Shown: positions 14,294 through 20,920 of the stretch, piece after piece | How the letters are laid out: each line of letters opens with the position of its first letter | How positions within the stretch are numbered: the stretch's first letter is position 1 | NCBI GenBank assembly: GCA_021648405.1 | Contig: JAKISX010000009.1 | Location: 1-41,093, forward strand | DNA length: 41,093 nt | DNA from: Sulfurimonas sp. | GTDB lineage: Bacteria; Campylobacterota; Campylobacteria; Campylobacterales; Sulfurimonadaceae | Direction of reading: 5' to 3' | Position numbers and translations under genes: made by a program | Notes under the pieces: model-generated | What the model saw: only the letters and a program-made list of their open reading frames with translations | The model's database searches: none | What the model was told of the DNA's origin: nothing

Positions 14294-14674
14294 ATGAAAT
14301 TTGAAATCACTACACCACTTTTGGGTTTTGAAAATATTAAAGAAGTTACACTAGAAAATATTGATGATATTTTTATGAAGATGCAAGCAGTAGATAATGA
14401 ATTTATATCTTTTACTCTAATAAATCCATTTATTCTCCGTGAATATGACTTTGAAGTGCCTCAAAACATACAAAATACTCTAGCTATAGATGATAAATCA
14501 AATCTATTAACCTTAAATATTGTCCTAATCCAAACCCCAATAGAAGATTCAGTTATAAACTTTATAGGTCCAATAGTATTTAATACAGACAACAACAAAG
14601 CTGCTCAAGTGATAATACAAGAATCCACAAAATACGGCGTTGCAGAAAAAATTTCTACTTTTTTAAATAACTAA
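14294..14674 (+). CDS. fliW: Flagellar assembly factor FliW
   Basis: FliW binds flagellin in the cytosol and antagonises the translational regulator CsrA, so that flagellin synthesis matches its export. The 126 residues have the family's length and beta-rich pattern: ITTPLLGFENIKEVTLENID at the N-terminus, FISFTLINPFILREYDFEVPQ near residues 38-58, and the closing LNIVLIQTPIEDSVINFIGPIVFNTDNNKAAQVI, which matches the usual FliW core of a strand followed by N-x-x-GP-(I/L)-x-x-N. It stands alone, with its own promoter, between bamD-lon and the pseudopilin block. csrA and flagellin genes are not in the window. H. pylori carries two FliW paralogues; which one this resembles cannot be told by eye. 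Confidence 0.92.
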   Translation: MKFEITTPLLGFENIKEVTLENIDDIFMKMQAVDNEFISFTLINPFILREYDFEVPQNIQNTLAIDDKSNLLTLNIVLIQTPIEDSVINFIGPIVFNTDNNKAAQVIIQESTKYGVAEKISTFLNN

Positions 14675-14797: not shown

Positions 14798-17700
14798 ATG
14801 AAAACTTTAAATCTTAAATTTTCTTTCCTGCTACTGTTTTTTATGTTGTTTAACATAAATTGTTTTGCTAAAGGAAATGCCACAGATCTTGAAAATCCAT
14901 TTTCTATAGTTTATAGCAATAACCTATATGGTGATTATGTTTCTATAGCTTCATCTATCCAATGTGTTGTTCCAAACGCTACTAGTACTATATGCAATTA
15001 TAACTATGTTGGCAATCTGTATAATGCACATTCTATATATGAAAATTCTCTTTCTACACTTATAATACCACTAAATTCATCAACAGAAACACTATCGCTA
15101 CCTAGCGACATTGATGGAGCAGATATCTTGTATGCTGGTTTATTTTGGCAAGGGCATATTGCTGGTGAGCAAGAAAATACCTATAATTCTGTCTTTAGTG
15201 CTAATGGTGGTATTGTTGGTAGGGATGAGGTAACCATGCAAGATTCTAGTGGTACTGTTCATAATATAACTGCTAGTAGAATTTGGTATCAGGATTTTTG
15301 GGGAGATGGTGATGATGATGATGGTGGGCATCGTTCTTTTTATCAAGGTTATGCAGATATTACAAATATTTTACAAAATTCTTATGATAAAAGTATAATT
15401 AATAACTACACAATTGGTAACATTAAATCTACAATTGGTAATGATTTTCCTACTTATTTTTGGATTGATAATCATAATGAATTTAATGGAGTTAGAATTG
15501 GTTTTTGGGGAAACTGGAACCTTATTGTTGTGTATAATCATTCAGATATAACTAGCTTGTCTCCTGTTCCAAAGCCTAAAAACATAACTATTTTTCATGG
15601 TTTTGATACTTTAATTCCATTTATAGCTTCAGGGACTGGTAGTGCAACAAAAAGTATTGAACTATCATTATCTGGCTTTTTAACCCCATCACAACTTCCC
15701 ATCTCTGCAAAGTTACTATTTTATGGTTCTGCTGGGGAAAAAAGCCTGCCATTCGACACCTTTAAAATCCAAGATAAGAATACAACTAATTTTCTTGACT
15801 TAAGCAATGCTACAAATCCTGTAGATAATGGATTTAATGGTTCAGTCTCAAGTTTTGGAATTCCAATAGATAGTAATATTAGTTATTACCCAGGATTAGA
15901 TAGTGATGAATTTGATATCTCTAATGCTATGGGAACTAAACAAACATCTACAAGACTAAGCCTTTCAGCTAGGTTCGAGCGCACTTCCGCTGTAGCTCAT
16001 GGTGACCAAATTATCCCTGGGCTGATTGCTTTTTCAACTGACATTTATGAACCTAACCTTTGTTACGATTATTCTATTAAACAAGATGGAAGTTATTTAA
16101 GTATTGATAGAGATAATTATCAAACAGCGCGTCTTGATACACAAATTTCTTCCTCTGATTTAGAAATTACCGTTTATTTAAAAACTCTAGAAGCAGATAT
16201 TCCAGCTGAGGGCATAGCAATTAGAACGGATGTAAATTCAAGTATTTTTAAGCATATTGGTAATATTTCCACTTCAAATACAAATGGTACTATACTGATT
16301 GACAGAGGCTCTCCAAACCATTCAACAGCATCACTTTGTGCTTATGATTTAAATGGTGATAATTCAGTAGGTAATAGTGGATGTTCTGATGGATATAATA
16401 TACGAAAAGGAAATGGTACTCTAAATGCTAATGAATTTGTATATACAAAATTTTTACTTGAGCCGACAAGCATTACTGGCGTAGAAGATATAAATGTATC
16501 ACTTGGTTTATCTATGAAATATTATATTACAGCTGGTGGCAATAAGATTGAGTATCCAGACTATGAACTTGGAGGTACTAATATTCCGCTTTGTCCACCT
16601 AATGCTTCATACGAACCTGCACTGGGACAATTTAATGTAGTTCAAAGTGGTCAACAAAATAATGATATAAAAAATAATATTTATACTCAAATATCAAGAA
16701 ATCCTTTTGCTGCTTCAGTAGTATTTGATTCTACCCCTTTAGATTATGATAACTCAGCTCCAACTTCAGACTTAAATACTACAGTTCTAGTTGAGATAAT
16801 AGATGTAGGCTCTTTTGGAGACATAAATGCTACATGTGTAAATCCAGATGCTTCTCTAAGTGCACCAATTTTTGTTCCACTTGAGTTTACACCTTTAAAC
16901 TTTCAAGCCCCTATAGCAACTCAAGGTGCTGATTACTACAATTTTGCGGTAAAAAATGCATCATTTAGGATTTGGTATTTTGCTGATAGCAATGGAACTC
17001 TTATACAAAACTGGACGGCAACTGTAGATACTAATAATACAAATGTTACTTCTATCTCAGGGCTATACAAAAGTGAACACCATCCTATTTGTTCAACAGA
17101 GTGTTCACCTGATACTACTAAAGGTTGTTTTGAATGTATAAAAAACAACTATTCCCAACAAATATGTGCACGAGACAATTTTTCAACCCGTCCAGAATCT
17201 TATAATGTGAAAATATATGATATTAACCATACAGCCTCAGATGCACTAAAAGACTCAACTAAGTTGGATATTTCTAACCAAGATGGATTTGATCCAACTT
17301 CGCACAAAACATCCAAGAGAATGAACCTTGCAGCGGGATACAACTACCGTTTTGATATAGATGCTACAGGCTATGATGGTATAAACACTGTCCCAGGCTA
17401 TACAAGAAATTTTAATGGTGGAGCTGATTATAACGCTACCATGATATGGGATCCTCAAACTACTAAATCAGGTTGTAATGATGATTCAAATGTAACTTTA
17501 GAATTTTTTGTTCAAAATGGAGCTATGATAAATCATGAAAACAATCATACAAATGTTGGTCAATACAAAATTAACATCATTGATCAATCTTGGACTGCTG
17601 TTGATAACACAAATAGAGCCCATCATATAGTTACTAACTCTTTTTACACTGACCCTGATTGTCAAGTAGGAACTACAGCAACAACTCTTTCAGCAGGTAG

Positions 17701-18904
17701 ATATGGCTGCTATATTAATACAGACCATAATGGTAGTAATAATAATTATGTACGATATTATCAGGATCATGATGTTGAATTTTTACCATATAAATTTGGC
17801 ATGACAGGTATAATTCCATCGCATGGTATAGACCATAACACTACATTTGATGCCAATACATTTATATATATGGCTGATATGTTATATAATTCATATAGCG
17901 ACCAAAATATGTCTTTTCACCTAAATGGTCCTATTTCTGCCCACGGTAAAGACGACTCTACATTAAGTAACTTTGTAGATAATTGTTACGCTAAAGAGAT
18001 AGATTTAACAATACAAAAATTTAATATTGCGGCTTCTTCATACGCAGATCATAGGTTTGTATTTCACAATACAGATATATCTACAAATAAACAAAACGGT
18101 AGCATGAAAAATTTAAGTGATACTATTACACTAAATACAGATGATTTTAATAAATCAAATAATGGTAGTGTAAATACTATTTTAAATCTAAATTTTGATA
18201 GAAATGTAAGTACTGTACAAAACCCTGAGACGCTAACTTTTACAAACTATAAAGTTTTTTGTAACAATCCTGCTAATAATTGCAAAATGAATGCAGAGTT
18301 AAATCCATTGTTTGAAACAAAAGGCAATATGGATCTTAATCAAACAGGTACCAATACTAATATAACTATAAATTATCTTTATGCCCGCTCTCATGCTACT
18401 AGAAATAGATTCTCTGCTCCTCTAGATCAAAATGCTTCTATATATTATGAAGTATATTGTGATGGGACTATAGCGGGTAATACATGTGATAAAGATTTAT
18501 TACCAAATGGTATAGATTCAAATACTACTGATGACCCAAGATGGTTTGTAAATGAAAATCATACATCAAATTATGGTAATGCTGGTAATGTTAATCAAAA
18601 AGGATATGCTGTAAATAATGGCTTTGTTACTCAAGATGGTGCCCCTACTAGTGCCCCTACTGGGAATCATCAAGATAAAGTAGTACTCGATTATAATAGC
18701 GCTAAAGGCTTTCCATATAAAACAACAATGCAGATGGAGTCTTCAAAATGGCTGATATATAACAAATACAATATTAATGCAACTAAAAACGAGTTTAAAG
18801 TTGAATATGCCTCTGATGCTTCATTGTGGGGTGGAAAAACTGAAACTGATTCTACTACAATAGAGGGTGGTGCGGATAGTACTAACCGGAGATTTATGTG
18901 GTAA
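14798..18904 (+). CDS. Giant secreted surface protein, first gene of the pseudopilin block
   Basis: A 1368-residue exported protein of unrecognised specific function. It has a Sec signal peptide (residues 1-24, cut after CFA) and no membrane anchor or LPXTG motif. The N-terminal 110-270 region, with DILYAGLFWQGHIAG, then SFYQGYADITNILQN, then NWNLIVVYNHSD and ITIFHGFD, follows the pattern of a beta-sandwich domain found at the front of many DUF11-type surface proteins. An acidic GDGDDDDGG loop at 169-177 may bind calcium. The remainder is Asn/Thr/Ser-rich beta-sheet with scattered cysteine pairs. The stop overlaps the next gene, a prepilin, by 7 bases. By layout it resembles MshQ or PilY1-type large proteins encoded with minor pilins, which sit at the pilus tip or on the surface; that is inference from position, as no PilY1 propeller motifs were seen. 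Confidence 0.75.
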   Translation: MKTLNLKFSFLLLFFMLFNINCFAKGNATDLENPFSIVYSNNLYGDYVSIASSIQCVVPNATSTICNYNYVGNLYNAHSIYENSLSTLIIPLNSSTETLSLPSDIDGADILYAGLFWQGHIAGEQENTYNSVFSANGGIVGRDEVTMQDSSGTVHNITASRIWYQDFWGDGDDDDGGHRSFYQGYADITNILQNSYDKSIINNYTIGNIKSTIGNDFPTYFWIDNHNEFNGVRIGFWGNWNLIVVYNHSDITSLSPVPKPKNITIFHGFDTLIPFIASGTGSATKSIELSLSGFLTPSQLPISAKLLFYGSAGEKSLPFDTFKIQDKNTTNFLDLSNATNPVDNGFNGSVSSFGIPIDSNISYYPGLDSDEFDISNAMGTKQTSTRLSLSARFERTSAVAHGDQIIPGLIAFSTDIYEPNLCYDYSIKQDGSYLSIDRDNYQTARLDTQISSSDLEITVYLKTLEADIPAEGIAIRTDVNSSIFKHIGNISTSNTNGTILIDRGSPNHSTASLCAYDLNGDNSVGNSGCSDGYNIRKGNGTLNANEFVYTKFLLEPTSITGVEDINVSLGLSMKYYITAGGNKIEYPDYELGGTNIPLCPPNASYEPALGQFNVVQSGQQNNDIKNNIYTQISRNPFAASVVFDSTPLDYDNSAPTSDLNTTVLVEIIDVGSFGDINATCVNPDASLSAPIFVPLEFTPLNFQAPIATQGADYYNFAVKNASFRIWYFADSNGTLIQNWTATVDTNNTNVTSISGLYKSEHHPICSTECSPDTTKGCFECIKNNYSQQICARDNFSTRPESYNVKIYDINHTASDALKDSTKLDISNQDGFDPTSHKTSKRMNLAAGYNYRFDIDATGYDGINTVPGYTRNFNGGADYNATMIWDPQTTKSGCNDDSNVTLEFFVQNGAMINHENNHTNVGQYKINIIDQSWTAVDNTNRAHHIVTNSFYTDPDCQVGTTATTLSAGRYGCYINTDHNGSNNNYVRYYQDHDVEFLPYKFGMTGIIPSHGIDHNTTFDANTFIYMADMLYNSYSDQNMSFHLNGPISAHGKDDSTLSNFVDNCYAKEIDLTIQKFNIAASSYADHRFVFHNTDISTNKQNGSMKNLSDTITLNTDDFNKSNNGSVNTILNLNFDRNVSTVQNPETLTFTNYKVFCNNPANNCKMNAELNPLFETKGNMDLNQTGTNTNITINYLYARSHATRNRFSAPLDQNASIYYEVYCDGTIAGNTCDKDLLPNGIDSNTTDDPRWFVNENHTSNYGNAGNVNQKGYAVNNGFVTQDGAPTSAPTGNHQDKVVLDYNSAKGFPYKTTMQMESSKWLIYNKYNINATKNEFKVEYASDASLWGGKTETDSTTIEGGADSTNRRFMW

Positions 18905-19527
18905 AATTTGCTTTAAATCGCTTAGCATTTACCCTAATAGAACTGCTTTTTGCAATTATGATTATGGGTATAACTATGGTATCTGTCCCCATTATTATGA
19001 GCTCAAACGCTAAAGGTTTTGAAACTACAATTATACAAGAAGCTATATTTGCAGCTTCAGCTGAGTTAAATCAAGCTCTTTCTTTTAGATGGGATGAAAA
19101 CTCACTTAATGAAGTAACTAATCCTACTGGTCTAACAAGAGTTATAGAGACAGGCGATTGTGATGATGTTACAAGACTTCGCCCAGGTCATATCAGACAA
19201 AAATATCATAGAAGATGCTTGGATGATGATAATATATCGGTTAGTACGCTTGGACCAGATAGTGGTGACTTAGACGACATTGACGATATTGATACCAACA
19301 TAAAAGATATGTTTTTAAATGATTCAACAACAGCAACTGGCTATAAACATAGATATCAAAGTACAATTGGGATTACTTATGGGGCTATTGGTAATGTAAA
19401 TGCAAGTAGCAACAATGCAAAATTAATTACAATTACAGTTAGTGATGATCAAGGTGAAACCGTTACAGTACTGCGTTCATATACCCTAAATATTGGCGAA
19501 GTTGATTTTTATGAGAGGACTTATTAG
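18898..19527 (+). CDS. Type IV pilin/pseudopilin-like protein (first)
   Basis: A 209-residue protein with a prepilin leader: a basic 10-residue leader ending in Ala, then FTLIELLFAIMIMGITMVSVPII. The mature N-terminus begins with Phe, has Glu at +5, and is followed by a hydrophobic helix. Cleavage after Ala rather than Gly is common in this phylum. The globular part has only two cysteines (in GDCDD and RRCLDD) and an acidic DLDDIDDIDTNIKD stretch near residues 122-135. The start is GTG at 18898, inside the end of the giant gene (7-base overlap), so the genes are translationally coupled. It ends one base into the next prepilin gene. It is too long and acidic to be a major pilin and looks like a minor pseudopilin; the exact family (GspH/I/J or PilV/W class) is not settled. 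Confidence 0.8.
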   Translation: MVKFALNRLAFTLIELLFAIMIMGITMVSVPIIMSSNAKGFETTIIQEAIFAASAELNQALSFRWDENSLNEVTNPTGLTRVIETGDCDDVTRLRPGHIRQKYHRRCLDDDNISVSTLGPDSGDLDDIDDIDTNIKDMFLNDSTTATGYKHRYQSTIGITYGAIGNVNASSNNAKLITITVSDDQGETVTVLRSYTLNIGEVDFYERTY

Positions 19528-20417
19528 TGATAAAAAAAATTAAAAAAGCCTTTACAATGCTTGAGCTTGTTTTTGTTATTGTTATTGTGGGACTACTTGC
19601 TACATTTGGTGTTGAATTTATGGTTCAGTCATATAAAAGTTATCTATTTTCAAAAATTAATAACCAACTGCAAAATGAAAGTGCAACAACAGTTAAGTTT
19701 ATAGCTAAAAGATTATCACATCGTATAAAAGATTCTGTAATAGCTAGAGATTTAGGATCAAGTGGTTTTGTTTCAATCCAAAATATAGTTAGTGGTAGTA
19801 GCTATACTGTTTTAGAGTGGGTTGGTGTAGATATTGATGGATGGCGTGGAAATACCCTTCCTTTTTGGAGTGGGATAATTGATTTAGAAGCTGATCTTGG
19901 ACAAACAACAAACTTAACATCACCAGAGACAAACACAGCAGCTATAAGTGGCTTTATAGCAACTTTATCTGGTGGAAGTAGCAGTATTGCCGATAGTGCA
20001 CTGTATTTTTTAGGCTCAGACAGTGATAGCTCTTATGGATGGGGTGGTCCTTTAACCTCACAACAAACCGCAGCTATGCATCCAGTAACTACTGGGACAA
20101 ATACCAATCAGTTTAGCTCAAGTATTGGAGCTGATTTTAGTGGTACTGTTGTTTCAGAATACTATAAACATGCATGGACAGCTTATGCAATAGTTCACTC
20201 AAATAATGGCGATTTAACACTCCACTACAACTATCAGCCATGGGCTGGAGAAACATATGATGCAATAGGGATTGGTGTGAGAACTGAGCTGATTATGCAA
20301 AATGTTACAACATTTCAATACAAAGCAATAGACACACTCATAAAAATTCAAGTATGTGTAGAACATGACCTAGCTGGAGAGGAGTACGCTATATGCAAAG
20401 AAAAAACTATATACTAG
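19527..20417 (+). CDS. Type IV pilin/pseudopilin-like protein (second)
   Basis: A 296-residue protein. Its leader (MIKKIKKA) is cut before FTMLELVFVIVIVGLLATFG, giving the prepilin signature with Glu at +5 of the mature protein. The globular part is unusually long for a pseudopilin. It begins with a helical stretch with KFIAKRLSHRIKDSV, continues into Gly/Ser-rich beta regions, and ends in two cysteines (VCVEHD and AICKEK) that could form a C-terminal disulfide loop. Size and the long helix recall the GspJ/PilW class, which stands second from the tip in pseudopili; this is a resemblance only. The start is GTG, sharing one base with the previous stop, and the gene overlaps the next by 25 bases. 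All four genes of the block therefore look like one translational unit. Confidence 0.8.
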   Translation: MIKKIKKAFTMLELVFVIVIVGLLATFGVEFMVQSYKSYLFSKINNQLQNESATTVKFIAKRLSHRIKDSVIARDLGSSGFVSIQNIVSGSSYTVLEWVGVDIDGWRGNTLPFWSGIIDLEADLGQTTNLTSPETNTAAISGFIATLSGGSSSIADSALYFLGSDSDSSYGWGGPLTSQQTAAMHPVTTGTNTNQFSSSIGADFSGTVVSEYYKHAWTAYAIVHSNNGDLTLHYNYQPWAGETYDAIGIGVRTELIMQNVTTFQYKAIDTLIKIQVCVEHDLAGEEYAICKEKTIY

Positions 20418-20920
20418 TACCTATAAAGAGTACACTTGGCTCTACTTTGAGTTCCCGTGAACATTTTTCTACGAAAAATATTCCATACGCTCAAGCCAAG
20501 CGCAGTGGCTTTGCAATGATTATGGCTGTAGTAGTTATGATAGTAGTAGCTACCATAATGATGTTTACTCTCAAACAAACCACTCAAACAGCTAAAACAA
20601 CAGCAGATATCTATTTGTATGAACAGTCAATACTTCATACAAAAAGTGCTATTGAGTATGCGTTATTTAGAATTGCTGAAAACAACACTACAGCAGGTTG
20701 TTTAAATAATTTATTATTTCAGCTACCACCTTATAATATAAACATAACTATGAGATATGTTTTTACTCCTGTAATTAGTAACTGTGACAGTTACATATCA
20801 AGTATAGTTACCCCCGAGCAAAATGGTTCTGTTTTAATGGATATTAGAGTTAGTGTAGATTCAGACGATACTGGTTCTGAGCCAATTACATACTTTAGAA
20901 GGACTATGCAAAAACTTTAG
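20393..20920 (+). CDS. PilX/GspK/MshP-like minor pseudopilin (third)
   Basis: A 175-residue protein with a hydrophobic segment RSGFAMIMAVVVMIVVATIMMF. The predicted prepilin cut is between Gly39 and Phe40. Glu at +5 is missing, as in the GspK, PilX and MshP classes, which cap or precede the other minor pilins. Downstream is a helix (TTADIYLYEQSILHTKSAIEYALFR) and two cysteines (GCLNN and NCDSY). The leader is oddly long at 39 residues. Residues 28-36 of it are encoded by DNA (20474-20499) that recurs upstream of der, so the real start may be internal, for example a TTG at codon 19, or the N-terminus may have been extended by a repeat. It is the last gene of the block, followed by hpf with its own promoter. 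Confidence 0.72.
   Translation: MQRKNYILVPIKSTLGSTLSSREHFSTKNIPYAQAKRSGFAMIMAVVVMIVVATIMMFTLKQTTQTAKTTADIYLYEQSILHTKSAIEYALFRIAENNTTAGCLNNLLFQLPPYNINITMRYVFTPVISNCDSYISSIVTPEQNGSVLMDIRVSVDSDDTGSEPITYFRRTMQKL
20474..20499 (+). repeat. 26-bp dispersed repeat inside the third pseudopilin gene
   Basis: The 26 bases match 31058-31083 (upstream of der) at 23 positions, and all three differences are transitions. Here the copy lies in frame inside the leader of a gene. Confidence 0.6.

Follow-up and report, generated by a model that had tools for sequence, protein, structure and literature searches.

How do the products of four overlapping genes, coding for a giant surface protein and three pilin-like proteins with no assembly machine beside them, reach the outside of the cell, and what might they build there? 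The genes lie in a stretch of 41,093 nucleotides of Sulfurimonas sp. DNA, hereafter called the window, which is contig C68 of a 1.68-Mb genome that is 82% complete. The initial annotation had noted the lack of an ATPase, a secretin or a prepilin peptidase nearby, and profile searches of the genome gave no match to any of the three on the window's contig. We consider, with a probability of roughly 0.78, that the four genes constitute the tip cassette of an MSHA-type type IV pilus, in which the minor pilins are capped by pC and the giant serves as the adhesive head, and that the machine is encoded on another contig. The features on which the argument turns are listed below.

14798..18904, + strand: giant; 1368 aa, ATG start; putatively exported; distant MshQ/DUF6701 homologue with beta-sandwich domains; proposed tip protein
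17168..18904, + strand: conserved C-terminal part of the giant, starting near residue 790 (C-x-RDNF-x-x-RPE) and ending with the final Trp; aligns with DUF6701; tandem Ig-like domains predicted
18889..18904, + strand: Shine-Dalgarno GGAG and start of pA, within the last codons of the giant (NRR-x-x-W-stop)
18898..19527, + strand: pA; 209-aa minor pilin, GTG start; MshD/GspI-like by position; N terminus RLA|FTLIEL
19527..20417, + strand: pB; 296-aa minor pilin, GTG start; MshO/GspJ-like by position and size; N terminus KKA|FTMLEL
20393..20920, + strand: pC; 175-aa minor pilin, ATG start; MshP/GspK/PilX-like, without Glu5; N terminus RSG|FAMIMA

Gene overlaps and genomic surroundings

The anatomy of the set was confirmed as first annotated: the 1368-residue giant overlaps the first of three pilin genes, the overlaps measure 7 bases between the giant and pA, 1 between pA and pB and 25 between pB and pC, and two of the genes use GTG starts. 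The first overlap reads GTGGTAA, so that the giant ends in ATG TGG TAA (Trp, stop) and pA begins with the GTG contained in it, and the Shine-Dalgarno sequence of pA, GGAG, is carried by the NRR codons of the giant just 5' of the pA start. In the 35 related loci listed, this overlap is always NTGGTAA, NTGGTAG or NTGGTGA, and AGGAG or a similar purine run precedes it in nearly all of them; the near-invariant final Trp of the giant can thus be explained by the start codon of the next gene. In the 25-base overlap, the conserved C terminus of pB, CKEKTI[YF], is overprinted by MQRKN, the leader of pC, which prepilin peptidase would cut off. As both the overlap and the gene order recur in relatives, the arrangement is not the product of chance, and the overlaps may serve to keep the four products in step.

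Upstream of the giant, fliW (14294-14674) lies on the same strand and a bamD-like gene lies further upstream on the opposite strand; an hpf/S30AE gene is found downstream of pC. Genes that we take, from their sequences, to be lon (upstream) and recG (downstream) are both on the opposite strand. Scans of the region for promoters and terminators gave matches no more frequent than those in shuffled sequences.

Minor pilins

Against the NCBIfam prepilin model TIGR02532 (cut-off, 16.3 bits), pA scored 17.8 and pB 21.7 bits; with the Pfam N_methyl model, both fell just below the cut-off in hmmscan, and pA exceeded it in the genome scan (25.2 bits). The match of pC to the GspK model was weak (18.2 bits; E = 0.0014), but its alignment revealed a prepilin-type N terminus without Glu5 in 36 of 36 homologues. 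Two cysteines of pB, Cys277 and Cys290, are conserved. When compared with the proteins of the Aeromonas MSHA locus, pA matched MshD (E = 1.8e-7), pB matched MshO (E = 5.9e-8) and pC matched MshP (E = 7.8e-6), mostly over the helix common to all pilins; the corresponding matches to GspI, GspJ and GspK of the same genome (E = 9.6e-7, 1.3e-4 and 3.4e-3, respectively) were somewhat weaker.

Homology of the giant to MshQ

The window giant returned no significant family from Pfam, NCBIfam or PDB sequences, and the DUF6701 domain (PF20419; Pfam cut-off, 27 bits) was not matched up to an E value of 1 in Pfam or 0.01 in the genome scan. A profile search nevertheless found DUF6701 in 83 of 399 genomes of the order, and giants from the same genus as the window exceeded the cut-off in G083 (54.8 bits), G105 (44.7 bits), G077 (44.6 bits), G075 (43.4 bits) and G103 (35.3 bits). 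In same-genus genomes, the open reading frame that matches DUF6701 is the giant directly upstream of pA-pB-pC, and 25 of 26 checked matches lie no more than 4 kb from pB. The MshQ fragment of the Aeromonas MSHA locus (L141) scores 333 bits to the same domain. A profile of the DUF6701-matching giants (A7; 18 rows, one of which is the C-terminal part of the window giant) matched Aeromonas MshQ with an E value of 2.1e-13 and a probability of 98, and it matched the profile of the window family (A5) with an E value of 2.1e-80; direct comparison of Aeromonas MshQ with A5 (E = 0.027) or with the profile A1 was not significant. Through these bridging orthologues, which match both MshQ and the window family, the window giant is, on sequence evidence, a distant homologue of MshQ/DUF6701; we use the term distant homologue, and not Pfam member, because the protein itself is below the DUF6701 cut-off.

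A plasmid search for further MshQ sequences yielded the Aeromonas record only. This record (NZ_AP026896.1; Aeromonas caviae, 4.9 Mb) is filed as a plasmid and is chromosome-like; its mshQ is fragmented on the + strand, and minus-strand open reading frames, perhaps IS elements, lie between the pieces.

DUF6701 is not mentioned in the openly licensed literature that we searched, and MshQ is listed there among the MSHA components with function unknown (PMC9815625). Family alignments show that the C-terminal part of the giant is conserved and the N-terminal part is variable, and its extreme N terminus is hydrophobic and, judged by eye, Sec-like. AlphaFold predicted beta-sandwich domains with a mean pLDDT of 81.1 for residues 749-1368 and of 75.5 for residues 24-790. 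The predicted C-terminal half resembles tandem Ig domains, and its top VIA match, a modest one, is the E. coli adhesin FdeC (Z 8.2, rmsd 7.3, 283 residues). For the N-terminal half, Foldseek and VIA returned only beta-sandwich or adhesin-like look-alikes; the best of these, PitA (Z 8.8, rmsd 2.7 over 120 residues), was tied with unrelated adaptor domains. As the structural matches are mere look-alikes, we assign no ligand to this half.

These data bear on the suggestion that the giant is a PilY1-like primer or stabilizer of assembly and not an adhesin, with binding left to the major pilin. Deletion of mshQ in Vibrio, where the product was termed a putative adhesin, reduces the amount of surface MSHA, and the pili that are left can still be retracted and allow phage transduction (PMC7096442), a phenotype compatible with an assembly factor, as is the distribution of conserved and variable sequence along the giant. 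On the other hand, the variable N termini of some relatives bear Ig, cadherin-like, DUF11, Calx-beta and CshA-type modules, the predicted folds resemble, at modest scores, those of adhesins such as FdeC and antigen I/II domains, and the occurrence of tandem giants in some clusters suits alternative heads; we regard a role confined to assembly as unlikely.

Conservation of the cassette

A single-sequence search found a relative of the giant in 161 of 200 genomes of the family; the named relatives of the giant that emerged from the contig search are Sulfurimonas metagenome-assembled genomes (MAGs). Forty-one loci were inspected, and in all 37 with sequence past the pA position pB and pC come next; pA itself was recognized in 34, and an unlabelled open reading frame of similar size takes its place in the 3 others, which are divergent. 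The pB family was detected by profile search in 255 of 399 genomes and in 58 of 87 genera of the order, and most of the 20 loci taken from twelve other families display the order giant-pA-pB-pC. The expectation of the initial annotation that giants should not occur in relatives without pilins held in part: none do so among same-locus orthologues, but family f16 has paralogous DUF6701 giants with no pilin gene next to them (L159-L161 and L168). The tight, order-wide association of a K-type cap with J- and I-type pilins and a giant provides gene-order evidence, from an independent lineage, that connects MshQ with the tip of the pilus.

Assembly machinery on other contigs

Over the whole genome there are six matches to PF00437, four of them over the cut-off, together with two secretins and one prepilin peptidase. 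On C55 (L021), MshL exceeds its equivalog cut-off (268.2 versus 250.2 bits) and is accompanied by an ATPase with MshEN and T2SSE domains, a PilO-like protein and a T2SSF (GspF/MshG-like) protein; an AAA ATPase at this locus resembles the PEP-CTERM ATPase family and was assigned to MshM by position, and no pilin gene was recognized in the cluster. With MshL, MshE, MshG and MshM in one locus, C55 is, as judged by profile matches and gene position, an MSHA-type machine. These are the four mandatory genes of MSH systems, for which a loner MshA is allowed; such systems are almost always encoded in a single locus, and all are without a prepilin peptidase (PMC6668835). C67 carries two major-type pilins, one of which is weakly like Aeromonas MshA (E = 1e-4 for the pair), and two PilT-family ATPases, with scores of 455 and 407 bits (cut-off, 319 bits), are encoded on C65 and C16. 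A type II secretion system (T2SS) is encoded on C15 (L020); its GspG is over the cut-off, GspD, GspE and GspF are best matches but lie under their equivalog cut-offs, and H-, I-, J- and K-type genes of its own were recognized by order and N-terminal sequence. The view that the four genes depend on a machine encoded elsewhere is supported, as an MSHA-type machine, a T2SS and a prepilin peptidase lie on other contigs, and the genome does not lack the means of prepilin processing.

The T2SS on C15 raises the question of whether the three pseudopilins could form the head of a second T2SS pseudopilus tip, with the giant as a dedicated secreted substrate. The minor pilins of T2SS and type IV pili are alike, and the tip pseudopilins of T2SS contact secreted effectors (PMC10191384). 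Against this, the T2SS on C15 owns minor pseudopilin genes, the giant is homologous to MshQ, and the clusters of genus g16 include a major-type pilin, and this last feature speaks for a pilus rather than for a secretion pseudopilus. The distribution of the genes points in the same direction: with orthologue thresholds for pB, MshE and GspE set by us, pB and MshE were found without a GspE orthologue in 63 of the 200 genomes of the family, including 9 that are closed or two-contig, and among the 22 closed or two-contig relatives pB and MshE are each present in 22 and GspE in 13. Since pB is retained where the GspE orthologue is absent, the module can do without a T2SS; we rejected the second-tip reading on these grounds (GspE is missing from 9 of these 22 relatives) and consider it distinctly improbable. 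The association of pB with MshE is itself modest (Fisher P = 0.003 over 200 genomes) and confounded by the completeness of MAGs, and the co-occurrence is statistically weak because MshE is near-universal. Seven genomes have pB but neither ATPase (G033, G058, G061, G139, G186, G194 and G198) and five pB-bearing genomes have GspE without MshE; most of the genomes in both groups are fragmented.

We consider it highly improbable that the giant represents PilY1 in a T4aP system of the classical type, in which minor pilins and a large non-pilin protein share one operon (PMC7541494 and PMC10191384): PF05567 is absent from the match table of the window giant and from the matches listed (25 of 34 families) for 34 family members at E values up to 1, on which basis the reading was rejected, the secretin is MshL and not PilQ, and the orthologues match DUF6701.

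A probable relocated MSHA tip cassette

The gene order, the location of the machine elsewhere, the lack of Glu5 in pC and the homology to MshQ together support the reading of the four genes as a relocated, Q-first MSHA minor-pilin/MshQ cassette. In type 4 filaments, the subunit that caps the tip complex lacks Glu5 (PMC10191384). We propose that pA, pB and pC, which are I-, J- and K-like and by analogy MshD, MshO and MshP, would be cleaved by prepilin peptidase and would assemble first in the MSHA-type machine, with the Glu5-less pC capping the minor-pilin complex. The giant, exported via Sec, would sit on the pC cap and be carried outward as an adhesive head by the growing pilus, and PilT-type motors could retract the pilus that bears it. 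Assembly in the C55 machine, export of the giant, its location at the tip and its part in adhesion are what we infer as most likely. The initial annotation had envisaged a tip complex carrying a large adhesin or a substrate-binding protein; the anatomy fits a large adhesin-like cargo, and substrate binding through a T2SS is disfavoured.

The mshC-D-O-P-Q genes of Vibrio, Aeromonas and Shewanella likewise combine I/J/K-type minor pilins with a giant exported DUF6701 protein, and the MSHA pilus shares with the present system the type of machine and the absence of a prepilin peptidase from the locus. In contrast to these systems, the giant comes first here (Q-D-O-P) and directly overlaps pA, the cluster contains no MshC-like gene, the giant of this genome has diverged too far for Pfam to recognize it, and the cassette is on a different contig from the machine and the major-type pilins. 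In the FimU-PilVWX-PilY1 set of T4aP, a single operon likewise encodes minor pilins with a Glu5-less cap and a large tip protein, but no match to the PilY1 family was detected in the giant described here and the secretin is of the MshL type. The I-J-K-type pseudopilins of the T2SS GspHIJK tip are homologous, but the T2SS has no giant partner and is encoded by a gene set of its own in this genome.

MSH systems were reported in Epsilonproteobacteria in 2019 by means of MacSyFinder-type models (PMC6668835); the bacterial group and the type of machine are the same, and the term MshQ is absent from the text of that paper. The split, Q-first cassette, its spread through the order, its homology to MshQ and its load of sequons were not found described in the openly licensed literature searched. 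The claim that the four genes represent an undescribed system is not supported, given the homology of the giant to MshQ/DUF6701, the MSHA type of the machine and the earlier report: the cassette belongs to a known kind of system, of which it is a divergent form spread through the order. As the present case illustrates, the machine and the tip of an MSH system can lie far apart in the genome, and locus-based detection can miss such an arrangement.

N-glycosylation sequons

The window giant contains 20 D/E-x-N-x-S/T sequons compared with 2.7 in shuffled sequences, while NxS/T sites without the acidic residue occur at the expected frequency (25 versus 24.5). Across 34 giants of the family there are 600 sequons versus 90 expected, with a total of 76 for the mirror motif, and D or E occupies position -2 in 42% of NxS/T sites as against 6-13% at the other positions tested. 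Other proteins of the genome that were checked show no comparable enrichment (pC, 2 versus 0.1; Lon, 2 versus 0.5), and the Aeromonas MshQ fragments contain zero sequons. PglB of C. jejuni requires an acidic residue at -2 (PMC4894442), and an STT3/PglB oligosaccharyltransferase is encoded in the genome of the window (G000:C38:10634-11788 [L169]; E = 2.9e-32). N-glycosylation of the giant by PglB is probable; as a pattern in the sequence the lead is strong, and the chemistry is presumed.

Enrichment extends to most families of the order and is missing in f11, G105 and G085. The f11 giants (L126 and L137) have 0 sequons although STT3 is present, G105 has STT3 and no enrichment, and G085 has neither enrichment nor a detected STT3; the giants of G262 and f22 are enriched, and STT3 was undetected in these genomes. 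A clean correlation between STT3 and sequons, as suggested by G085, was weakened by G262, f22, f11 and G105 and was not retained. We suggest tentatively, at a little under even odds, that in most Campylobacterales a giant of the MshQ type forms the head of the MSHA-type pilus and is a main client of PglB-dependent N-glycosylation, with tens of glycans per molecule, and that the sugar coat together with the protein sets binding at the tip or resistance to proteolysis. If the sequons are used, this would be a pilus-tip glycoprotein that joins two well-known systems of the Campylobacterota, so far studied separately.

Natural variants of the cassette

Natural variants of the cassette, such as tandem heads and swapped N-terminal modules, could be used for testing the function of MshQ. 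Tandem giants precede pA-pB-pC at L056:4788-15365, L063:4011-14656 and L064:3115-13245, and are perhaps alternative tip heads. Three consecutive DUF6701 giants without pilins, perhaps likewise alternative heads, are encoded at L168:2561-12623 in an f16 genome, and in one relative (L109) pA-pB-pC stand with no giant beside them. Another type of cluster, present in some genomes (L162, L164, L166 and L167), comprises a DUF6701 giant, pA, pB, pC and an extra pB-like pilin, and its giants end in forms such as RGVRIFR and not in NRRxxW. In genus g16, the gene for the major-type pilin separates pB from pC (L068:4011-4436, L092:3828-4304 and L115), and this inserted pilin is 53% identical over 55 residues to a C67 pilin of the window's genome. 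Two genomes of the same genus as the window, G119 (99% complete) and G148, have no orthologues of pB, MshE or GspE, an apparent joint loss. At L059:6678-9185 (G006), the giant is interrupted by two in-frame stops, and the pilin genes look intact.
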